NCBI GenBank assembly: GCA_017504485.1
Contig: JAFVRC010000005.1
Coordinates: 1 to 64,000 of the forward strand
Direction of reading: 5' to 3'
Length of the DNA: 64,000 bases
DNA from: Alistipes sp.
GTDB lineage: Bacteria > Bacteroidota > Bacteroidia > Bacteroidales > Rikenellaceae
In this document: in pieces, positions 40,331 to 48,457 of the stretch
Layout: each line of letters opens with the position of its first letter
How positions within the stretch are numbered: the stretch's first letter is position 1
Notes under the pieces: generated by a model
Told to the model about the DNA's origin: nothing
What the model saw: only the letters and a program-made list of their open reading frames with translations
The model's database searches: none
Program-made: the position numbers and the translations under genes

Positions 40331-40516
40331 CGACAGTAGTTGCATTTTTATCAGCTAAGTGGCATGCCACTATTCAACAGCGTTGCGTATATCCACCGAG
40401 ATATAGCACTCTTTTCTATTAAGAACCAATTTATAATCTTTGTTGATTATCAGGCCTGGTGCATCAGAGAAATTAACTTACCTATTTTTTTTATCGTCCA
40501 AGGTAGCGACTTGGCA

Positions 40517-40524
40517 TATTTTTG
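40517..40524 (+). promoter_or_regulatory. -7 promoter element before the receiver-like gene
   Basis: TATTTTTG matches TAnnTTTG. No good TTTG is found at the usual distance upstream. It suits a start near 40530, shortly before the ATG at 40557. Confidence 0.45.
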
Positions 40525-40556
40525 GCTTGGGGTGGATAGCTTTATCTATATTCGAA

Positions 40557-40910
40557 ATGAGAAGAGTTATTATCCACTCCGCCTCGGCCGAGTTTAGGAG
40601 GCTGCTGCGGGGATTGCTGGTTGATGCAGATTGCAACATCGAGCATATCGCCTCACGCGAGGCACTGCTCGATGCCTGTCGCGATATGCAGTGCGACCTT
40701 ATTATGACCGACGACGTGCGTATGTTTCAGTCGGGCGACGACGTGGCATGCGCCCTGCAAAGGGTACATCTGCCACGCATCGTATTGCTGTCGCACGATG
40801 CGAGTGAAGATACGGTACTCGCACTACTCGAGGGGTGTGTGAGTCGCTATGTTGTACTGCCCTGCGAGCCGTCACGCCTGCGACGTATGGCTATGCAGTG
40901 CATAGAGTAG
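40557..40910 (+). CDS. degenerate CheY-like receiver domain protein
   Basis: A 117-residue protein from the ATG at 40557. Its secondary-structure pattern follows a response-regulator receiver: RRVIIHSASAEFRRLL (beta1-alpha1), CDLIMTDDVRM (beta3 with a candidate phosphoacceptor Asp near 53-54), RIVLLSHDASED (beta4 with the Ser/Thr position) and SRYVVLPCEPSRLRRM (beta5). The acidic pair after beta1 is replaced by Ser-Ala and the invariant Lys of the KP motif is absent (LPCEP). Phosphorylation-dependent switching is therefore doubtful. No output domain or kinase is nearby. It starts a three-gene set with the HEAT-repeat and GT2-like genes (6-nt gap). Confidence 0.6.
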   Translation: MRRVIIHSASAEFRRLLRGLLVDADCNIEHIASREALLDACRDMQCDLIMTDDVRMFQSGDDVACALQRVHLPRIVLLSHDASEDTVLALLEGCVSRYVVLPCEPSRLRRMAMQCIE

Positions 40911-40916
40911 AGCACT

Positions 40917-41858
40917 ATGGAGAGGTTTGCCGACTTATCGCTCGATACGATGATGGCCGTAGTAGCCATATTGGGCGTATTGTGCCTTCTATTGAACGTA
41001 AAGCGTATGATGTGGCTTGCCGAGCGACGGTTACGCCTACAAGCTATCGGTGAGGTGGCCGAACTTGTCGGAGCTGCCGATGCTCCGTGCTACCGCACGA
41101 TTGATGCCTTGGTCGAGCGATATCCGTCATCAATTCTGTCCGAGGCACTATCCGAAGTTGCGGAGCATATATGCGGCATACGGCTCTACCGTGTGGCGAT
41201 GATTGCCGAGCGCAGCGGCATCTACGAATATCTGCAACGCAAGGCGGCGTGCAACACCTCGCTACAACGTGCACGTTATCTGGCTCTGCTCGCCAAGTTC
41301 CCACTCTCGCGCCGCTATGGCGACTATGTGGCTATGTACCTCGACGACAGCGACAGCCGTGTGCGCTTCTACGCCTTTGTCGTACAACTCGTTGCCGACT
41401 CCGAGGCTGCAGTACGGCGACTCGCAGCCTTCGACCGTATGCTCGCGCCCTTCGAACTTGCCACACTGCTCTACCTTCTACGCCGCGGCGACTCGCCGAT
41501 AGCCTACACGCCGCTGTTGTGCTCCGAGAGTTGCAATCTGCGAATGCTCGGTATGATGGTCGCAAGTCACTTTGGCGACACAGAGTGCGAGTCGCTGCTC
41601 CACAAGATTGTAGGGCGCGATGACGACACCTCGGTCGAGGCCCTCTATGCTCTCGCCTCAATACGTGGAAGCGTGGCACACGACGACGTGCGACACCTCG
41701 TAAACCGCTTATCGGCGCCACGACGGCGCTCGCTTTGTCGCCGCCTTGCTCACGAGGGGTACTCCTGCAAAGCCATCGAGTCGCTTCTCGACACGCACGA
41801 ACAGCAATACTTCGAAGAGTTATCCAACTCCTATAAACGACCTATATTATGCAGCTAA
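40917..41858 (+). CDS. membrane-anchored HEAT-repeat protein
   Basis: A 313-residue protein. One hydrophobic segment at about residues 11-28 (MMAVVAILGVLCLLLNV) is followed by a basic stretch. The remainder is all-helical and Leu/Ala/Arg-rich with HEAT-like pairs such as RARYLALLAKF, DSDSRVRFYAFVVQL, CNLRMLGMMVASHFGD and TSVEALYALASIRG. The repeats should form a cytoplasmic protein-binding scaffold. It has no enzymatic motif. It overlaps the following gene by 10 nt and follows the receiver-like gene by 6 nt, so the three proteins are probably made together and may form one complex. Confidence 0.7.
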   Translation: MERFADLSLDTMMAVVAILGVLCLLLNVKRMMWLAERRLRLQAIGEVAELVGAADAPCYRTIDALVERYPSSILSEALSEVAEHICGIRLYRVAMIAERSGIYEYLQRKAACNTSLQRARYLALLAKFPLSRRYGDYVAMYLDDSDSRVRFYAFVVQLVADSEAAVRRLAAFDRMLAPFELATLLYLLRRGDSPIAYTPLLCSESCNLRMLGMMVASHFGDTECESLLHKIVGRDDDTSVEALYALASIRGSVAHDDVRHLVNRLSAPRRRSLCRRLAHEGYSCKAIESLLDTHEQQYFEELSNSYKRPILCS

Positions 41859-42757
41859 TTGCCCTTCTACTCTTCATCGTCGCGCTACTACTGCTCGTCG
41901 GGGCTCTCGTCTCGGCATGGCGACGACGCGACATATCGGCCGACAAACTCTTCGACGTTGAGCATACGTTGCTACGCAATCGTGTGGCCAACATAGGGGT
42001 TTCGATGGTACTCCTCGCACCGCGCAGTATCGAAGCTATTACCAATCTGCTCAATACGCTCTACCCTGCAACTGAGCTTGTTGTGACAATCGACTCGCAT
42101 CGCCAAAATGCGCTGCTGCGCCGCCTCATCGAGCGTTATGCGATGATTGGTGTAGAACATCGCCACCTCATCGGCTGCAATAGTCATGTTACGGGGCTCT
42201 ACCGCTCACGTCGTCGCGCCTTTCGGCAGCTGGTGGTCATAGAGACGGAAGAGGCCGAAATGAGCTTCGAGGTTGCCGTTGCCGCAGCAACCTACGACCA
42301 TATACTCCGCGTGCCGCGCGGTGCCGTGCTCGAGGAGCACGCCGTAGGGCGTATGGTTGCCGAACTTGGGAGTGCCGAGAGTATAGCAACAACAGGAGTT
42401 GTGTCGCTGACGGGAGCTACATTGCAACTTATGCCTCGCACGGGCGATAATAACATAGGTATAAGATATGTGGTGCGCCCCTTGGCATGGTACGATACAC
42501 GGCCCGCCTACGCACTCTTCGCAGCCATTGGCATTACGCTCGGCACTGCCGCCTTGGCACTGCTCACGAAGGAGCCGCTGGCGAGCGCCGCGGCTATGTC
42601 GCTTTGTGGTGTGCTACTCTGTGCGATGTGCGTTGCTGCGCGTATGTTGTCGCAAAAGTCGCTTCTTCGAACATTCTCGGCTGTCGTTGAAAATTTTTAT
42701 GAGGATTTACTCGTTTATATGAAGAAAATATCGTACCTTTACTTACGCAAACTTTAA
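41849..42757 (+). CDS. membrane protein resembling a GT2 glycosyltransferase without a DXD motif
   Basis: A 302-residue protein. It has an N-terminal helix (about 3-24), a cytosolic domain (30-205) and two helices near 220-265. The cytosolic part follows a GT-A order: SMVLLAPRSIEAITNLLNTL and LVVTIDSH look like the donor-binding start. The segment YDHILRVPRGAVLEEHAVGRM aligns by eye with the place where GT2 enzymes have LD-x-D followed by L..DAL..M, but all acidic residues of that motif are missing. The QXXRW-type acceptor region of cellulose/PNAG synthases is not visible. It may be a non-catalytic partner of an unlinked synthase. Family assignment is my inference from pattern, not a match I could compute. 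Confidence 0.5.
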   Translation: MQLIALLLFIVALLLLVGALVSAWRRRDISADKLFDVEHTLLRNRVANIGVSMVLLAPRSIEAITNLLNTLYPATELVVTIDSHRQNALLRRLIERYAMIGVEHRHLIGCNSHVTGLYRSRRRAFRQLVVIETEEAEMSFEVAVAAATYDHILRVPRGAVLEEHAVGRMVAELGSAESIATTGVVSLTGATLQLMPRTGDNNIGIRYVVRPLAWYDTRPAYALFAAIGITLGTAALALLTKEPLASAAAMSLCGVLLCAMCVAARMLSQKSLLRTFSAVVENFYEDLLVYMKKISYLYLRKL

Positions 42758-42766
42758 AACGTAGTT

Positions 42767-43600
42767 ATGCTCACATCAGACATTTGCGCCTACCTTCTGC
42801 CGCGAGCCTTCAATGCCGCTGTGCGTGCCGGTGCCGAGATTATGAAGGTCTATAACAGCAGTGATGATTATGACATCACTGTCAAGGTAGATAATACCCC
42901 ACTGACGATTGCCGACCGCCTCGCGCACAACAAGATAAAGGAGGTCTTGGGCGACACGCGCATACCTATTCTCTCGGAGGAGGGGCGCGAGATGCTCTAC
43001 GACGAGCGTCGCAATTGGGAACTCTTTTGGTTGGTCGATCCCCTCGACGGCACTGTCGAGTTCATCAAGCGCAACAACGAATTCACCGTCAACATAGCCC
43101 TTATGGCCGACAATAGGGCACTCTGCTCGGTCATATATGTTCCATATCTGGCCAAGGCCTATATTGCCGAGCGTGGCTCCGGTGCCCACCTTTTGTGCTC
43201 TATCGAGCCGAGCAGCGACGCATCATACACCTACGAGCAGCTACACTCGGCAGCCACACTGCTGCCTCTCGCCGAGGCTGCACATACGCCATTCCGTGTC
43301 GCCGTGTCGCGCTCTCACCAGACGGCCGAGACCGAGCAGTGTGTGGCCAACATGCGTTCGCAGCACCCCGACCTCGAAGTTATCGAGCAGGGCAGCTCCT
43401 ACAAGTTCTGCCTTCTGGCCGAGGGGCGTATCGACTACTACCCTCGTACCACACACACCTACGAGTGGGACACTGCAGCTGCCGAACTTATACTCTCCGA
43501 AGCCGGGGGCCTCACGCGCACGCTGCCCGAGTACTCCGAGTTACACTACAACAAGGAGGATCTGCACAACCCGTGGTTCGAGTGCTTCGCCCGAAAATAG
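42767..43600 (+). CDS. cysQ: 3'(2'),5'-bisphosphate nucleotidase CysQ
   Basis: A 277-residue inositol-monophosphatase-fold enzyme. It has TVKVDNTPLTIADRLA near the N-terminus, LSEEGRE with metal-binding glutamates (71-72), WLVDPLDGTVEFIKRN (about 88-103), and the C-terminal HTYEWDTAAAELILSEAGG motif. The PLDGT-EFI form is typical of CysQ. It hydrolyses PAP/PAPS during sulfur metabolism. It starts 9 nt after the GT2-like gene, so it may share that promoter, though functional connection is not apparent. A terminator follows. Confidence 0.92.
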   Translation: MLTSDICAYLLPRAFNAAVRAGAEIMKVYNSSDDYDITVKVDNTPLTIADRLAHNKIKEVLGDTRIPILSEEGREMLYDERRNWELFWLVDPLDGTVEFIKRNNEFTVNIALMADNRALCSVIYVPYLAKAYIAERGSGAHLLCSIEPSSDASYTYEQLHSAATLLPLAEAAHTPFRVAVSRSHQTAETEQCVANMRSQHPDLEVIEQGSSYKFCLLAEGRIDYYPRTTHTYEWDTAAAELILSEAGGLTRTLPEYSELHYNKEDLHNPWFECFARK

Positions 43601-44471: not shown

Positions 44472-44502
44472 TTTGTTTTTATATGACTATTTCGTATTTT
44501 TG
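44472..44502 (+). promoter_or_regulatory. consensus promoter of the FAD oxidoreductase pair
   Basis: TTTG (44472-44475), a 19-nt spacer and TATTTTTG (44495-44502) match the consensus perfectly. Transcription from about 44508 excludes any start upstream of it and supports the ATG at 44542. Confidence 0.72.
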
Positions 44503-44541
44503 CGAAAACATATAATAGAAGACGTAGATTTTAAAAACAGA

Positions 44542-46482
44542 ATGAAGTATTTCTTTTTAACACTTATTGCAGCAGTAGTCGGGATGACAACTGCCGTAGG
44601 CCAGATTACCGGCGTTGAGTTGGCACGCAACAAGCAGGGCACAGCCTTCCAGACCAACGAGAACGATATGCTTGTTCGCCACGTCGAGATGGAGGCCCCG
44701 ATTGTTGTTTGCGGAGGAGGTCTTTCGGGTATATGCGCAGCTGTTTCGGCCGCGCGTCACGGCTCGAAGGTAATCTTAATTCAGGATCGCCCGATGCTCG
44801 GCGGCAACGCCTCGAGCGAGATGCGTATGGGCATCGTGGGTGTGCGCGAAAATCAATGTCAGGAGGCCGGTATTCTCGAAGAGATGCAGTGCCGCAACTT
44901 CTACTACAACCCATTGCAGCGCTACCCTCTCTGGGATGACATCTTCTACTCGACGGTTGTCGAGGAGCCTAACATCCGCCTACTGCTCAACACGTCGGTG
45001 CGCGACGTGGTGATGCGTGGCGAGGAGATTGCCGCCGTGAAGTGCTGGAACTCCAACAACTACACCGAATATACCATCTCGGGCAAGCTCTTCATCGATT
45101 GCACGGGCGACGGTATTCTCCGACTCTCGGGTGCGAAGTATCGCCGAGGCACCGAGGCCAAAAGCACATACAACGAAGAGCACCTATCCACTACCGTAGC
45201 CAATAATACGACTATGGGCAACTCCATCCTCTTGCAATTGCGCAAAACAACCGAGCATCGCCCATTCTATGCTCCTTCGTGGGCCTATCACTTCACGGAT
45301 GAGGATTTCAACTATGCGACTCCTAAATCAACCATTCCGGGTGTAAAGATTCACTACAAATATCTCAATCAGGTCTCCGACAATAACTTTTGGTGGATTG
45401 AGTGCTCGGGCAAGGCCTTTGACACCATCTTCGATGCCAACGAGATTCAGTACGAGCTGAAAAAAATTGCCTATGGCGTCTGGGAGTATATTAAGAATCA
45501 TCCTGACGGCCGCGCTCATGATTTCGAGTTGGTGTGGATAGGCTCGATTCCGGGCAAACGCGAGTCGGCACGCTACGTCGCCCCACACACCCTTACAGAG
45601 CAGGATGTAGTATCTGGCGGTCACTTCGAGGATGTTGTGGCCTATGGCGGCTGGGGACTCGACGACCACAATCCTAACGGCTTCCACAACAAAGGCCCTG
45701 CCGGCTACGACTACCCTATCAAGCAGGGCTACGGCATCCCTTACGACTGCCTCTACTCGGTGAATGTTCCGAACCTGATGTTCGCCGGTCGTGATATCTC
45801 GACCTCGCACATGGCCTTCTCGGCGACACGCGTAATGGCTACCTGCGCACTTATCGGTCAGGCTGTCGGCACGGCTGCCGATATGATTATCGACAAGGGT
45901 ACTACCCCTGCCGGCCTGCGCAAAGATTACATCAAGGAGCTTCAGGATGTGCTGGAGGATGACGACTGTATGCTGCCATATCGCTGGCGCAAGATATATC
46001 CGCTCACGGCAGCTGCCAAAACGACAGCCGAGAACGAGCCTATGCGTAACGGCATAGACCGCGAGTGGGATGGCCAGGACAATGGTGTCTATGCCGCCAC
46101 GGGCGAGAAGCACCTCGCCTACACCTGGGCAAAGCCTGTTTCGGCGTCGGGTGTGCGCTTCATCTTCGACTCGGACTTGAAGGTACGCGGCAAGCGCATG
46201 CGAAAGTTGGAGGAGACCTCCGAGCGTGCCAAGATGCCTGCGGAAATGGTGCGTGACTTCCGCGTTGAGGTGCGCATTCCGGCCACCGACAAGAAGAGCA
46301 GCAAGCTCCACGTTGCAGACCCTATGGCCGGCGAGTGGAAGACCGTAGCCACCGTGAAAGACAACTACCGTCGCCTCGTGAAGCTCGACTTCGATGCGGT
46401 CGAGACTGACGGTGTGCGTATCGTTGTCGATAAGACGTGGGGGGCCGACAAGGCTCATATCTTCGCCTTCGACGTGAAGTAA
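44542..46482 (+). CDS. secreted FAD-dependent oxidoreductase, copy 1
   Basis: A 646-residue protein from the ATG at 44542; a longer in-frame start would lie within the promoter. A signal peptide (about 1-20) ends before QITGVELAR. The FAD-binding region is APIVVCGGGLSGICAAVSA (about 52-70, GGGLSG loop) with GGNASSEMRMG and a late MFAGRDISTSHMAFSATRVM segment, as in the FAD_oxidored family found in Bacteroidota and Planctomycetota polysaccharide-use loci. Residues from about 500 form a discoidin-like beta-sandwich. The substrate is probably a sugar or glycoside oxidised in the periplasm; this is inferred. The second copy begins 28 nt downstream. Confidence 0.83.
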   Translation: MKYFFLTLIAAVVGMTTAVGQITGVELARNKQGTAFQTNENDMLVRHVEMEAPIVVCGGGLSGICAAVSAARHGSKVILIQDRPMLGGNASSEMRMGIVGVRENQCQEAGILEEMQCRNFYYNPLQRYPLWDDIFYSTVVEEPNIRLLLNTSVRDVVMRGEEIAAVKCWNSNNYTEYTISGKLFIDCTGDGILRLSGAKYRRGTEAKSTYNEEHLSTTVANNTTMGNSILLQLRKTTEHRPFYAPSWAYHFTDEDFNYATPKSTIPGVKIHYKYLNQVSDNNFWWIECSGKAFDTIFDANEIQYELKKIAYGVWEYIKNHPDGRAHDFELVWIGSIPGKRESARYVAPHTLTEQDVVSGGHFEDVVAYGGWGLDDHNPNGFHNKGPAGYDYPIKQGYGIPYDCLYSVNVPNLMFAGRDISTSHMAFSATRVMATCALIGQAVGTAADMIIDKGTTPAGLRKDYIKELQDVLEDDDCMLPYRWRKIYPLTAAAKTTAENEPMRNGIDREWDGQDNGVYAATGEKHLAYTWAKPVSASGVRFIFDSDLKVRGKRMRKLEETSERAKMPAEMVRDFRVEVRIPATDKKSSKLHVADPMAGEWKTVATVKDNYRRLVKLDFDAVETDGVRIVVDKTWGADKAHIFAFDVK

Positions 46483-46510: not shown

Positions 46511-48457
46511 ATGAAAAACAGAATTTTACTACTAATGACAGTGGCCGCTATCCTCTTCTCGGCAACTGCCGTAGGCCAGATTACCGGCGTTGAGTTGGCA
46601 CGCAAAAAGCAGGGCACAGCCTTCCAGACCAACGAGAACGATATGGTTGTTCGCCACGTCGAGATGGAGGCCCCGATTATTGTTTGCGGAGGAGGACTTG
46701 CCGGCGTCTGCACAGCTGTTTCAGCAGCGCGTCACGGCTCGAAGGTAATCCTAATCCAGGATCGCCCGATGCTCGGCGGCAACACCTCGAGCGAGATGCG
46801 TATGGGCATCGTGGGTGTGCGCGAGGATCAATGCCAGGAGGCAGGTCTTATCGAGGAGATGCAGTGCCGCAACTTCTTCTACAACCCATTGCAGCGTTAC
46901 CCGTTGTGGGATGATGTCATCTACTCGACAGTTGTTGAGGAGCCTAACATCCGCCTACTGCTCAACACGTCGGTGCGCGACGTGGTGATGCGTGGTGAGG
47001 AGATTGCCGCCGTGAAGTGCTGGAACTCGAACAACTACACCGAATACACCATCTCGGGTAAACTCTTTGTCGATTGCACGGGTGATGGTATTCTCCGCCT
47101 ATCGGGCGCGAAGTATCGTCGTGGTATGGAGGCCAAGAGCACATACAACGAGTCGTATGTCACCAACGAGCAGTCAACGAACTACACGATGGGCAACTCC
47201 ATCCTCTTGCAGTTGCGCCTTGCCGAGAAGCACCACCCTTTCAAGGCTCCCGATTGGGCCTACCACTTCACGGATGAGGACTTCGACTATGCGACACCAA
47301 AATCGACCGACCCGAAACAGAAACTCAACTACAAGATTATTTGGCGTGCCCACGACAACAACTTCTGGTGGGTTGAGTGCTCGGGCATAAAGTTCGACAC
47401 TATCTTCGATGCCAACGAGATTCAGTACGAGCTGAAGAAGATTGGTTACGGTATCTGGGAGTATATGAAGAACCATCCTGACGGCCGCTGCTACCACTAC
47501 GAGCTCGTGTGGATGGGCTCTATCCCGGGCAAGCGCGAATCTACGCGCTATGTCGCCCCACACACCCTCACGCAGCAGGATATCCTTTCGGGCGGCCACT
47601 TCGAGGATGTTGTGGCCTATGGCGGCTGGACGCTCGACAACCACGACCCTAACGGCTTCCACAACAAGGGCCTCGCCTCGGTTGAGTACTTTATTCCACA
47701 AGGCTACGGCATCCCTTACGACTGCCTCTACTCGGTGAATGTTCCGAACCTGATGTTCGCCGGTCGTGATATCTCGACCTCGCACATGGCCTTCTCGGCG
47801 ACACGCGTGATGGCTACCTGCGCACTTATCGGTCAGGCTGTCGGCACGGCTGCCGATATGATTATCGACAAGGGCACTACCCCTGCCGGCCTGCGCAAGG
47901 ATTACATCAAGGAGCTTCAGGATGTGTTGGAGGATGACGACTGCATGCTGCCATATCGCTGGCGCAAGATATATCCGCTCACGGCAGCTGCCAAGACGGC
48001 CTCCGAGAACGAGCCTATGCGTAACGGTATCGACCGCGAGTGGGATGGTAAGGATAATGGTGTCTATGCCGCCGTTGGAGATAAGCACCTCGCCTACACA
48101 TGGGCAAAGCCTGTCTCGGCCTCGGGTGTGCGCTTTATCTTCGACTCGGACCTGAAGGTGCGCGGTAAGCGTATGCGTAAGCTTGAGGAGACCTCCGAGC
48201 ATATTCCTATGCCATCGGAGATGGTGCGTGACTTCCGCGTTGAGGTGCGCGTTCCTGCCGCCGACAAGAAGGGCCGCAAGCATCAGGCTGCCGACCCTAT
48301 AGCCGGCGAGTGGAAGACCGTAGCCACCGTGAAAGATAACTACCGTCGCCTCGTGAAGCTCGACTTCGATGCGGTCGAGACTGACGGTGTACGTATCGTT
48401 GTCGATAAGACGTGGGGGGCCGACAAGGCTCATATCTTCGCCTTCGACGTGAAGTAA
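46511..48457 (+). CDS. secreted FAD-dependent oxidoreductase, copy 2
   Basis: A 648-residue tandem paralogue of the preceding gene. The N-terminal FAD region and residues 400-500 are nearly identical, including long runs of unchanged DNA. The main divergence lies around residues 205-295 and in the signal peptide. It has a signal peptide ending at about residue 22 (before QITGVELARKK), GGGLAGVCTAVSAARHG, GGNTSSEMRMG and the same C-terminal sandwich. The uneven identity suggests duplication with later gene conversion and a substrate-facing region free to diverge. Same operon as copy 1, ending at a strong terminator. Confidence 0.83.
   Translation: MKNRILLLMTVAAILFSATAVGQITGVELARKKQGTAFQTNENDMVVRHVEMEAPIIVCGGGLAGVCTAVSAARHGSKVILIQDRPMLGGNTSSEMRMGIVGVREDQCQEAGLIEEMQCRNFFYNPLQRYPLWDDVIYSTVVEEPNIRLLLNTSVRDVVMRGEEIAAVKCWNSNNYTEYTISGKLFVDCTGDGILRLSGAKYRRGMEAKSTYNESYVTNEQSTNYTMGNSILLQLRLAEKHHPFKAPDWAYHFTDEDFDYATPKSTDPKQKLNYKIIWRAHDNNFWWVECSGIKFDTIFDANEIQYELKKIGYGIWEYMKNHPDGRCYHYELVWMGSIPGKRESTRYVAPHTLTQQDILSGGHFEDVVAYGGWTLDNHDPNGFHNKGLASVEYFIPQGYGIPYDCLYSVNVPNLMFAGRDISTSHMAFSATRVMATCALIGQAVGTAADMIIDKGTTPAGLRKDYIKELQDVLEDDDCMLPYRWRKIYPLTAAAKTASENEPMRNGIDREWDGKDNGVYAAVGDKHLAYTWAKPVSASGVRFIFDSDLKVRGKRMRKLEETSEHIPMPSEMVRDFRVEVRVPAADKKGRKHQAADPIAGEWKTVATVKDNYRRLVKLDFDAVETDGVRIVVDKTWGADKAHIFAFDVK

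Follow-up and report, generated by a model that had tools for sequence, protein, structure and literature searches.

Three genes lie head to tail on the forward strand of the window, the whole 64,000-nucleotide stretch of DNA analysed here, which comes from an Alistipes genome of 1.92 Mb rated 82% complete. The genes, the motifs of interest within them and the flanking elements are as follows.

40511..40525, forward strand: promoter-like element TTGGCATATTTTTGG, 45 nt 5' of the receiver gene, with the core TGGCAYnnTTTT usually followed by S-G
40557..40910, forward strand: P1, pseudo-receiver of 117 aa, with S and A in place of the acidic pocket, L at the Lys position and the acceptor-position Asp, D52, kept
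40917..41858, forward strand: P2, 313 aa, with a single hydrophobic stretch near the N terminus, judged from the sequence, and a HEAT-like part predicted to be cytosolic
41849..42757, forward strand: P3, predicted membrane pseudo-GT2 of 302 aa, with a remnant of the N-terminal half of a GT-A domain flanked by hydrophobic stretches, one on its N-terminal and two on its C-terminal side, judged from the sequence
42200..42229, forward strand: codons of the arginine motif YRSRRRAFRQ, P3 residues 118-127, inside the best conserved stretch of P3 (112-135)
42314..42325, forward strand: codons of P156-R157-G158-A159 of P3, at the position of the catalytic DADS in the alignment with intact GT2s
42767..43600, forward strand: flanking inositol-monophosphatase/CysQ-like gene (Pfam Inositol_P, 2e-39), which is context and lies outside the complex

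The sequence-only reading of this DNA had described a tightly packed set of a broken receiver, a HEAT scaffold and a GT2-like protein lacking its catalytic motif, and the packing was confirmed throughout: P1 and P2 are separated by 6 nt, P2 and P3 overlap by 10 nt, and the coordinates stand. The cysQ-like gene is often found 3' of the operon, and both it and rplU-rpmA are recurrent neighbours across several genera, although the neighbourhood is partly rearranged. A GH31-like gene of ~500 aa separates P3 from the cysQ-like gene in two sister genera (L087, 4408-5907; L092, 8444-9988).

P1 matches the Pfam family Response_reg at 2e-6 and 28.4 bits, slightly below the cutoff of 30.2. It was said to lack both the acidic pocket and the conserved Lys, and this was borne out, as the pocket positions carry S and A and the Lys position carries L; the word "broken" is apt for these sites but not for the phospho-acceptor position, where the window copy still has an Asp (D52). 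The combination of acidic pocket, acceptor Asp and Lys that characterizes a phosphorylatable response regulator is thus absent from P1. The same is true of its relatives: the second acidic residue, the Asp and the Lys occur together in none of 95 receiver rows from degenerate operons (90 when compared by their last 60 residues, the other 5 being repeats with a different start), versus 16 of 18 from intact operons, a set that excludes L249, beyond the 4-kb limit, and L207, on the opposite strand. In the degenerate operons the Lys position is F in 54 rows and L in 37, and an Asp at the acceptor position is found in 16, the window copy among them. The best NCBIfam match of P1 is NblR, at 18.7 bits against a cutoff of 300. 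NblR is an atypical, phosphorylation-independent response regulator, and regulators of its type are, like P1, members of the receiver family without acidic pocket and Lys; unlike them, P1 has no output domain and is encoded in an operon of membrane proteins.

Neither of the other two proteins has a convincing family match by its single sequence. A Pfam scan with the single P2 sequence gave no HEAT family match, and aligned relatives are only 14-32% identical to the window protein; its proposed HEAT-like part is nevertheless backed by a profile-profile match between the P2 family and the HEAT partners of intact synthases (98.7%, E 1.6e-16). Likewise, the single-sequence family scan of P3 found no GT2 match, but the P3 family profile aligned with intact HEAT-associated GT2s in hhalign (99.6%, E 1.6e-24) over 137 columns, all of them in the N-terminal half, which strongly supports GT-A domain homology for that half. 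When the P3 family profile was searched against the PDB, the sole plausible hit was ceramide glucosyltransferase, which at E 0.0012 was judged too weak and set aside.

Because PRGA of P3 aligns with DADS of the intact enzymes, the earlier placement of RVPRG at the DXD position is correct. In the window P3, GED and QRxRW have no counterpart, both falling in gaps, and none of the K(A/G)D, DXD, ED base and QxxRW motifs of BcsA-like synthases is found in it. Among 88 degenerate GT2 rows, no catalytic position out of six is kept in 60, one in 23 and two in 5, while all six are kept in 36 of 36 intact-type rows, a comparison that is partly circular, since rows were assigned to the two classes by motif patterns (at least 3 of 4). 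The intact-type rows comprise 28 found by the order search and 8 Rikenellaceae copies of the second type; two L164 pieces (intact-type, with an in-frame stop), the variant L190, degenerate sequences below 230 aa and duplicates were left out. The D of GED falls in a gap in 67 of the 88 rows and is D in 4, the Q of QRxRW falls in a gap in 40 and is Q in 5, and its W falls in a gap in 66. Intermediate states of this degeneration are present in sister genera. The predicted loss of phosphorylation in P1 and of catalysis in P3 follows from these residues.

At the first Asp conserved in the GT-A half (D82), 74 of the 88 degenerate rows have D and 12 have N, and the best conserved stretch of the protein, residues 112-135, surrounds the motif YRSRxRx[F/Y]RRL, with R119, S120, R126 and column 127 as its constrained positions. 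Position 126 is R in 77 of 88 degenerate rows, whereas intact rows show K, S, A, H and other residues there, so that the arginine constraint here is stronger than in the intact relatives. Part of this preference is owed to an Arg-rich composition (R 10% and K 2% in the pseudo-GT2s; R 5% and K 6% in intact GT2s). Across the aligned relatives of P3, identity to the window protein is mostly 16-31%, and its C-terminal half is poorly conserved.

A likely origin of these genes becomes apparent outside the family. A Bacteroidales genome there carries an operon (L055) with the order receiver - YaiO - HEAT - GT2, in which Pfam recognizes a canonical receiver (8.7e-28), YaiO (2e-32), HEAT_2 (6.3e-11) and GT2 (1.3e-21). 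At E 1e-5, HEAT profile A4 has matches in 44 of the 393 genomes from the order, and a GT2 lies beside the HEAT gene in 29 of 30 order-search loci (once in two frames), the exception being L200, with no GT2 in the stretch examined. The ED and QRxRW patterns are present in 29 of these 29 GT2s and all four motif patterns in 23. In wider stretches (n = 20), a same-strand receiver precedes YaiO-HEAT-GT2 in 13, YaiO-HEAT-GT2 stands without a receiver within the stretch examined in 4, and 3 belong to a second type, HEAT-GT2-TPR/YaiO without a receiver. This second type also occurs in some Rikenellaceae, Alistipes included, where a few genomes have an intact-type HEAT-GT2-YaiO locus besides (L161, L163, L164). 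In one of these (G073, L164) the GT2 is broken by an in-frame stop. Four intact-type GT2s from different Rikenellaceae genera (L084, L086, L167, L169) are 84-90% identical, against the 16-31% identity that most degenerate copies within Alistipes show to the window P3, and lateral spread is a possible reason.

The GT2 of L055 aligns with BcsA (4hg6, 5ej1) at E ~1e-6 through KA, DAD, ED and QRxRW, catalytic motifs that it shares with BcsA and related membrane GT2 synthases and none of which remains in the window P3; this homology suggests that catalysis was the ancestral state. A Pfam scan of the three window proteins showed no PilZ (c-di-GMP-binding) domain. The parent operons have the same gene families and packing as the Alistipes operon, with homologous HEAT and GT2 profiles, and keep receiver chemistry, catalytic motifs and the YaiO barrel, all three of which the Alistipes operon has lost. 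YaiO (Pfam PF19413; E. coli YaiO), an outer-membrane barrel encoded with the intact operons, has no matching frame in 188 degenerate-operon loci (43 of at least 8 kb; many short and overlapping) and no Pfam match in the 82% complete window genome. In a HEAT tree, which sorts by locus rather than by motif, the degenerate operons all fall on one side of one branch with support of 100/99; this careful version has 81 rows, with 43 of the 89 degenerate ones and without the window, and a fast tree of all 127 rows, the window included, again places the 89 degenerate rows on one side of one branch. The root is a midpoint root only. Derivation from an exopolysaccharide-synthase module, as first suggested from the window itself, is thus strongly supported by the profiles and the tree, with intact operons in other Bacteroidales and the Alistipes versions as their degenerate kin. 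The intact parent operon is brought to light here as well; for neither operon did we find a description or a name in a literature search from which subscription papers were largely outside scope.

The set is not peculiar to one strain. Of 268 genomes of the family, 131 have a match to the HEAT profile, spread over 10 of 22 genera; within the genus, 108 of 180 genomes do, and 47 of 70 when only high-quality ones are counted. Most named records with this gene are from Alistipes, among them A. montrealensis kh20, A. muris and A. senegalensis. With the P3 profile, 149 of the 268 family genomes match, some of them through intact GT2s or weak matches to other GT2s. Conservation of gene order outside the strain, proposed earlier as a check, was found in several genera: of 67 distinct loci, all retrieved because of a match to these families, 64 have P1 next to P2 and 65 have P2 next to P3, at a spacing of -50 to +30 nt. 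One exception is the intact operon L055, with YaiO in between. The HEAT match is absent from 72 of the 180 genus genomes and from 23 of the 70 high-quality ones, so the operon is dispensable. Only P1 and a truncated HEAT gene are left in G070 and G071, only P1, directly before cysQ, in L260 and L262, and only the promoter element before cysQ in L265. Such partial remains show that the three proteins are not always required together, and in these few cases of partial loss P1 outlasts P2 and P3.

Of 90 regions upstream of P1, 72 are from Alistipes and 18 from other genera; the core TGGCAYnnTTTT occurs in 70 and 1 of these, respectively, and after shuffling in a mean of 0.08 of all 90. The pattern TTGGCAYRNTTTTNG has a single occurrence in the whole window genome (backward control, 0), as has YTGGCAYRNTTTTSG, which lies before P1 at 40511-40525. 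Across the 180 genus genomes YTGGCAYRNTTTTSG has 130 sites and its backward pattern 28 (hand-counted from a table). Of the 108 genomes with HEAT, 77 have a site at a distance of 364-485 bp on the 5' side of that gene, which accounts for 77 of the 130. The GG-10nt-G spacing is kept, and 66 of 71 have a G at -12, though the -12 C is not conserved; this spacing fits the -24/-12 promoter consensus as given in PMC12316311. An rpoN gene is present in the window genome, and a strict sigma54 consensus is found in 0 of 90 upstream regions, for which reason we would describe the element only as a putative -24/-12-like sigma54 promoter, a class typified by TGGCAC-N5-TTGC-like elements. The Bacteroidetes -7 box TAnnTTTG (21 of 68, shuffled 8.9; 29 of 90, shuffled 12.1) was dropped because the conserved core is TGGCAYnnTTTT. 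Twenty further sites were taken from the other 53, mainly recurrent ones, so that the share of catalase genes is biased: 10 precede an open frame with a catalase start sequence (3 confirmed by Pfam) and 2 precede P1 without P2 or P3. In these ten Alistipes genomes (L252-L259, L267, L268), the distance from the element to the catalase gene is roughly 50 nt. The same promoter type before catalase genes hints at a stress response; a literature search on RpoN and catalase in Bacteroides returned nothing beyond a Campylobacter review, judged by its title.

All three genes are under purifying selection and are not dead. Aggregated pN/pS is 0.177 for P1, the most constrained of the three, 0.312 for P2 and 0.317 for P3, with 0.108 for cysQ, while the means of the neutral simulations were 1.03-1.08 and their lowest values 0.765 (P1), 0.934 (P2), 0.872 (P3) and 0.844 (cysQ). 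The pairs, 12 from Alistipes and 1 from a sister genus, were 13 of 17, the other four sharing a locus with a used pair or, once, having just a 65-codon piece of P3 (dN/dS 0.55); every pair, 12 or 13 per gene, lies at 0.07-0.50. P3 evolves fast, its C-terminal half most (~0.378 versus ~0.259 for the N-terminal half). Some of the P2 and P3 frames used have starts placed too far upstream, an error that would push pN/pS up and makes this split of P3 less sharp.

The reading that we consider probable is that a membrane synthase complex was converted into a phosphorylation-independent, non-catalytic complex that is still under selection. The ancestor would have been a Bacteroidales membrane polysaccharide-synthase module of receiver, YaiO barrel, HEAT protein and GT2. 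In an ancestor within the Rikenellaceae, the barrel would have been lost and the phosphorylation chemistry of the receiver and the catalytic residues of the synthase would have decayed, but the receiver, the HEAT protein and what remained of the GT would have stayed together and acquired a new use; we infer both this direction of change and the new use. In the proposed arrangement, P2 would be anchored in the inner membrane, its HEAT solenoid holding P1 by the conserved alpha4-beta5-alpha5 face without phosphorylation, and P3 would sit next to P2, presenting the remnant nucleotide-binding half of the GT-A domain. The complex probably binds an anionic ligand: the arginine patch YRSRxRx[F/Y]RRL could accommodate a nucleotide, a nucleotide sugar, a lipid phosphate or an acidic protein. 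Expressed from the -24/-12-like promoter, such a complex could act as a ligand-controlled membrane scaffold or regulator. A more specific version, which we regard as conceivable but would not expect, makes it a metal-independent nucleotide or nucleotide-sugar sensor, in which the dead GT-A half binds through D82 and the arginine patch and signals through HEAT to the phosphorylation-free receiver.

It is unlikely, in our view, that the operon is instead a decaying relic, a synthase operon that ceased to function in a Rikenellaceae ancestor, serves no purpose now and is being lost. Its absence from 72 of 180 genus genomes, the partial remains in several others, the low identity of P2 and P3 to their relatives and pN/pS values of these two genes about threefold that of cysQ would all fit such decay. 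However, the values of all pairs are far under those of the neutral simulations, which put ~61 stop hits on P3, the gene order, overlaps and promoter element are all retained, and R126 of the arginine motif is more constrained than in intact relatives.

Rather doubtful is a role as regulatory partner, decoy or adaptor, of a separate polysaccharide synthase that is intact and present in the same cell. The second, intact-type locus in a few Alistipes genomes (L161, L163) could supply such a synthase, but among the matches listed an intact-type match was found in the genus only in G068, G073, G070 and G013, and in the 82% complete window genome a search with the single P3 sequence found just P3 itself and Pfam found no YaiO. 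Some GT-A enzymes are metal-independent, with basic residues in place of the metal, and despite this precedent, the retained D82 and the arginine patch near the nucleotide site, we think it very improbable that P3 retains enzymatic activity through an active site rebuilt to work without metal, given the gaps at GED and QRxRW in the window protein and in many of the 88 rows and the poorly conserved C-terminal half.

Single pseudoenzymes are known; here, chemistry was lost from both the receiver and the synthase of one operon within a single lineage, and by its HEAT match this operon persists, under purifying selection, in ~108 of the 180 species sampled from a genus common in the gut. If the conversion to a non-catalytic complex is correct, the operon is a natural experiment on which parts of a regulated polysaccharide synthase pay without catalysis, and would indicate that Alistipes has a signalling or scaffold complex not yet described; should the sensor version hold, enzyme, regulator and scaffold would have been turned jointly into a signalling complex.

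Elsewhere in the window, two closely similar proteins of 669 and 648 aa, FAD-dependent oxidoreductase-like by eye, are encoded in tandem at 44473-46482 and 46511-48457, probably as the result of a duplication.
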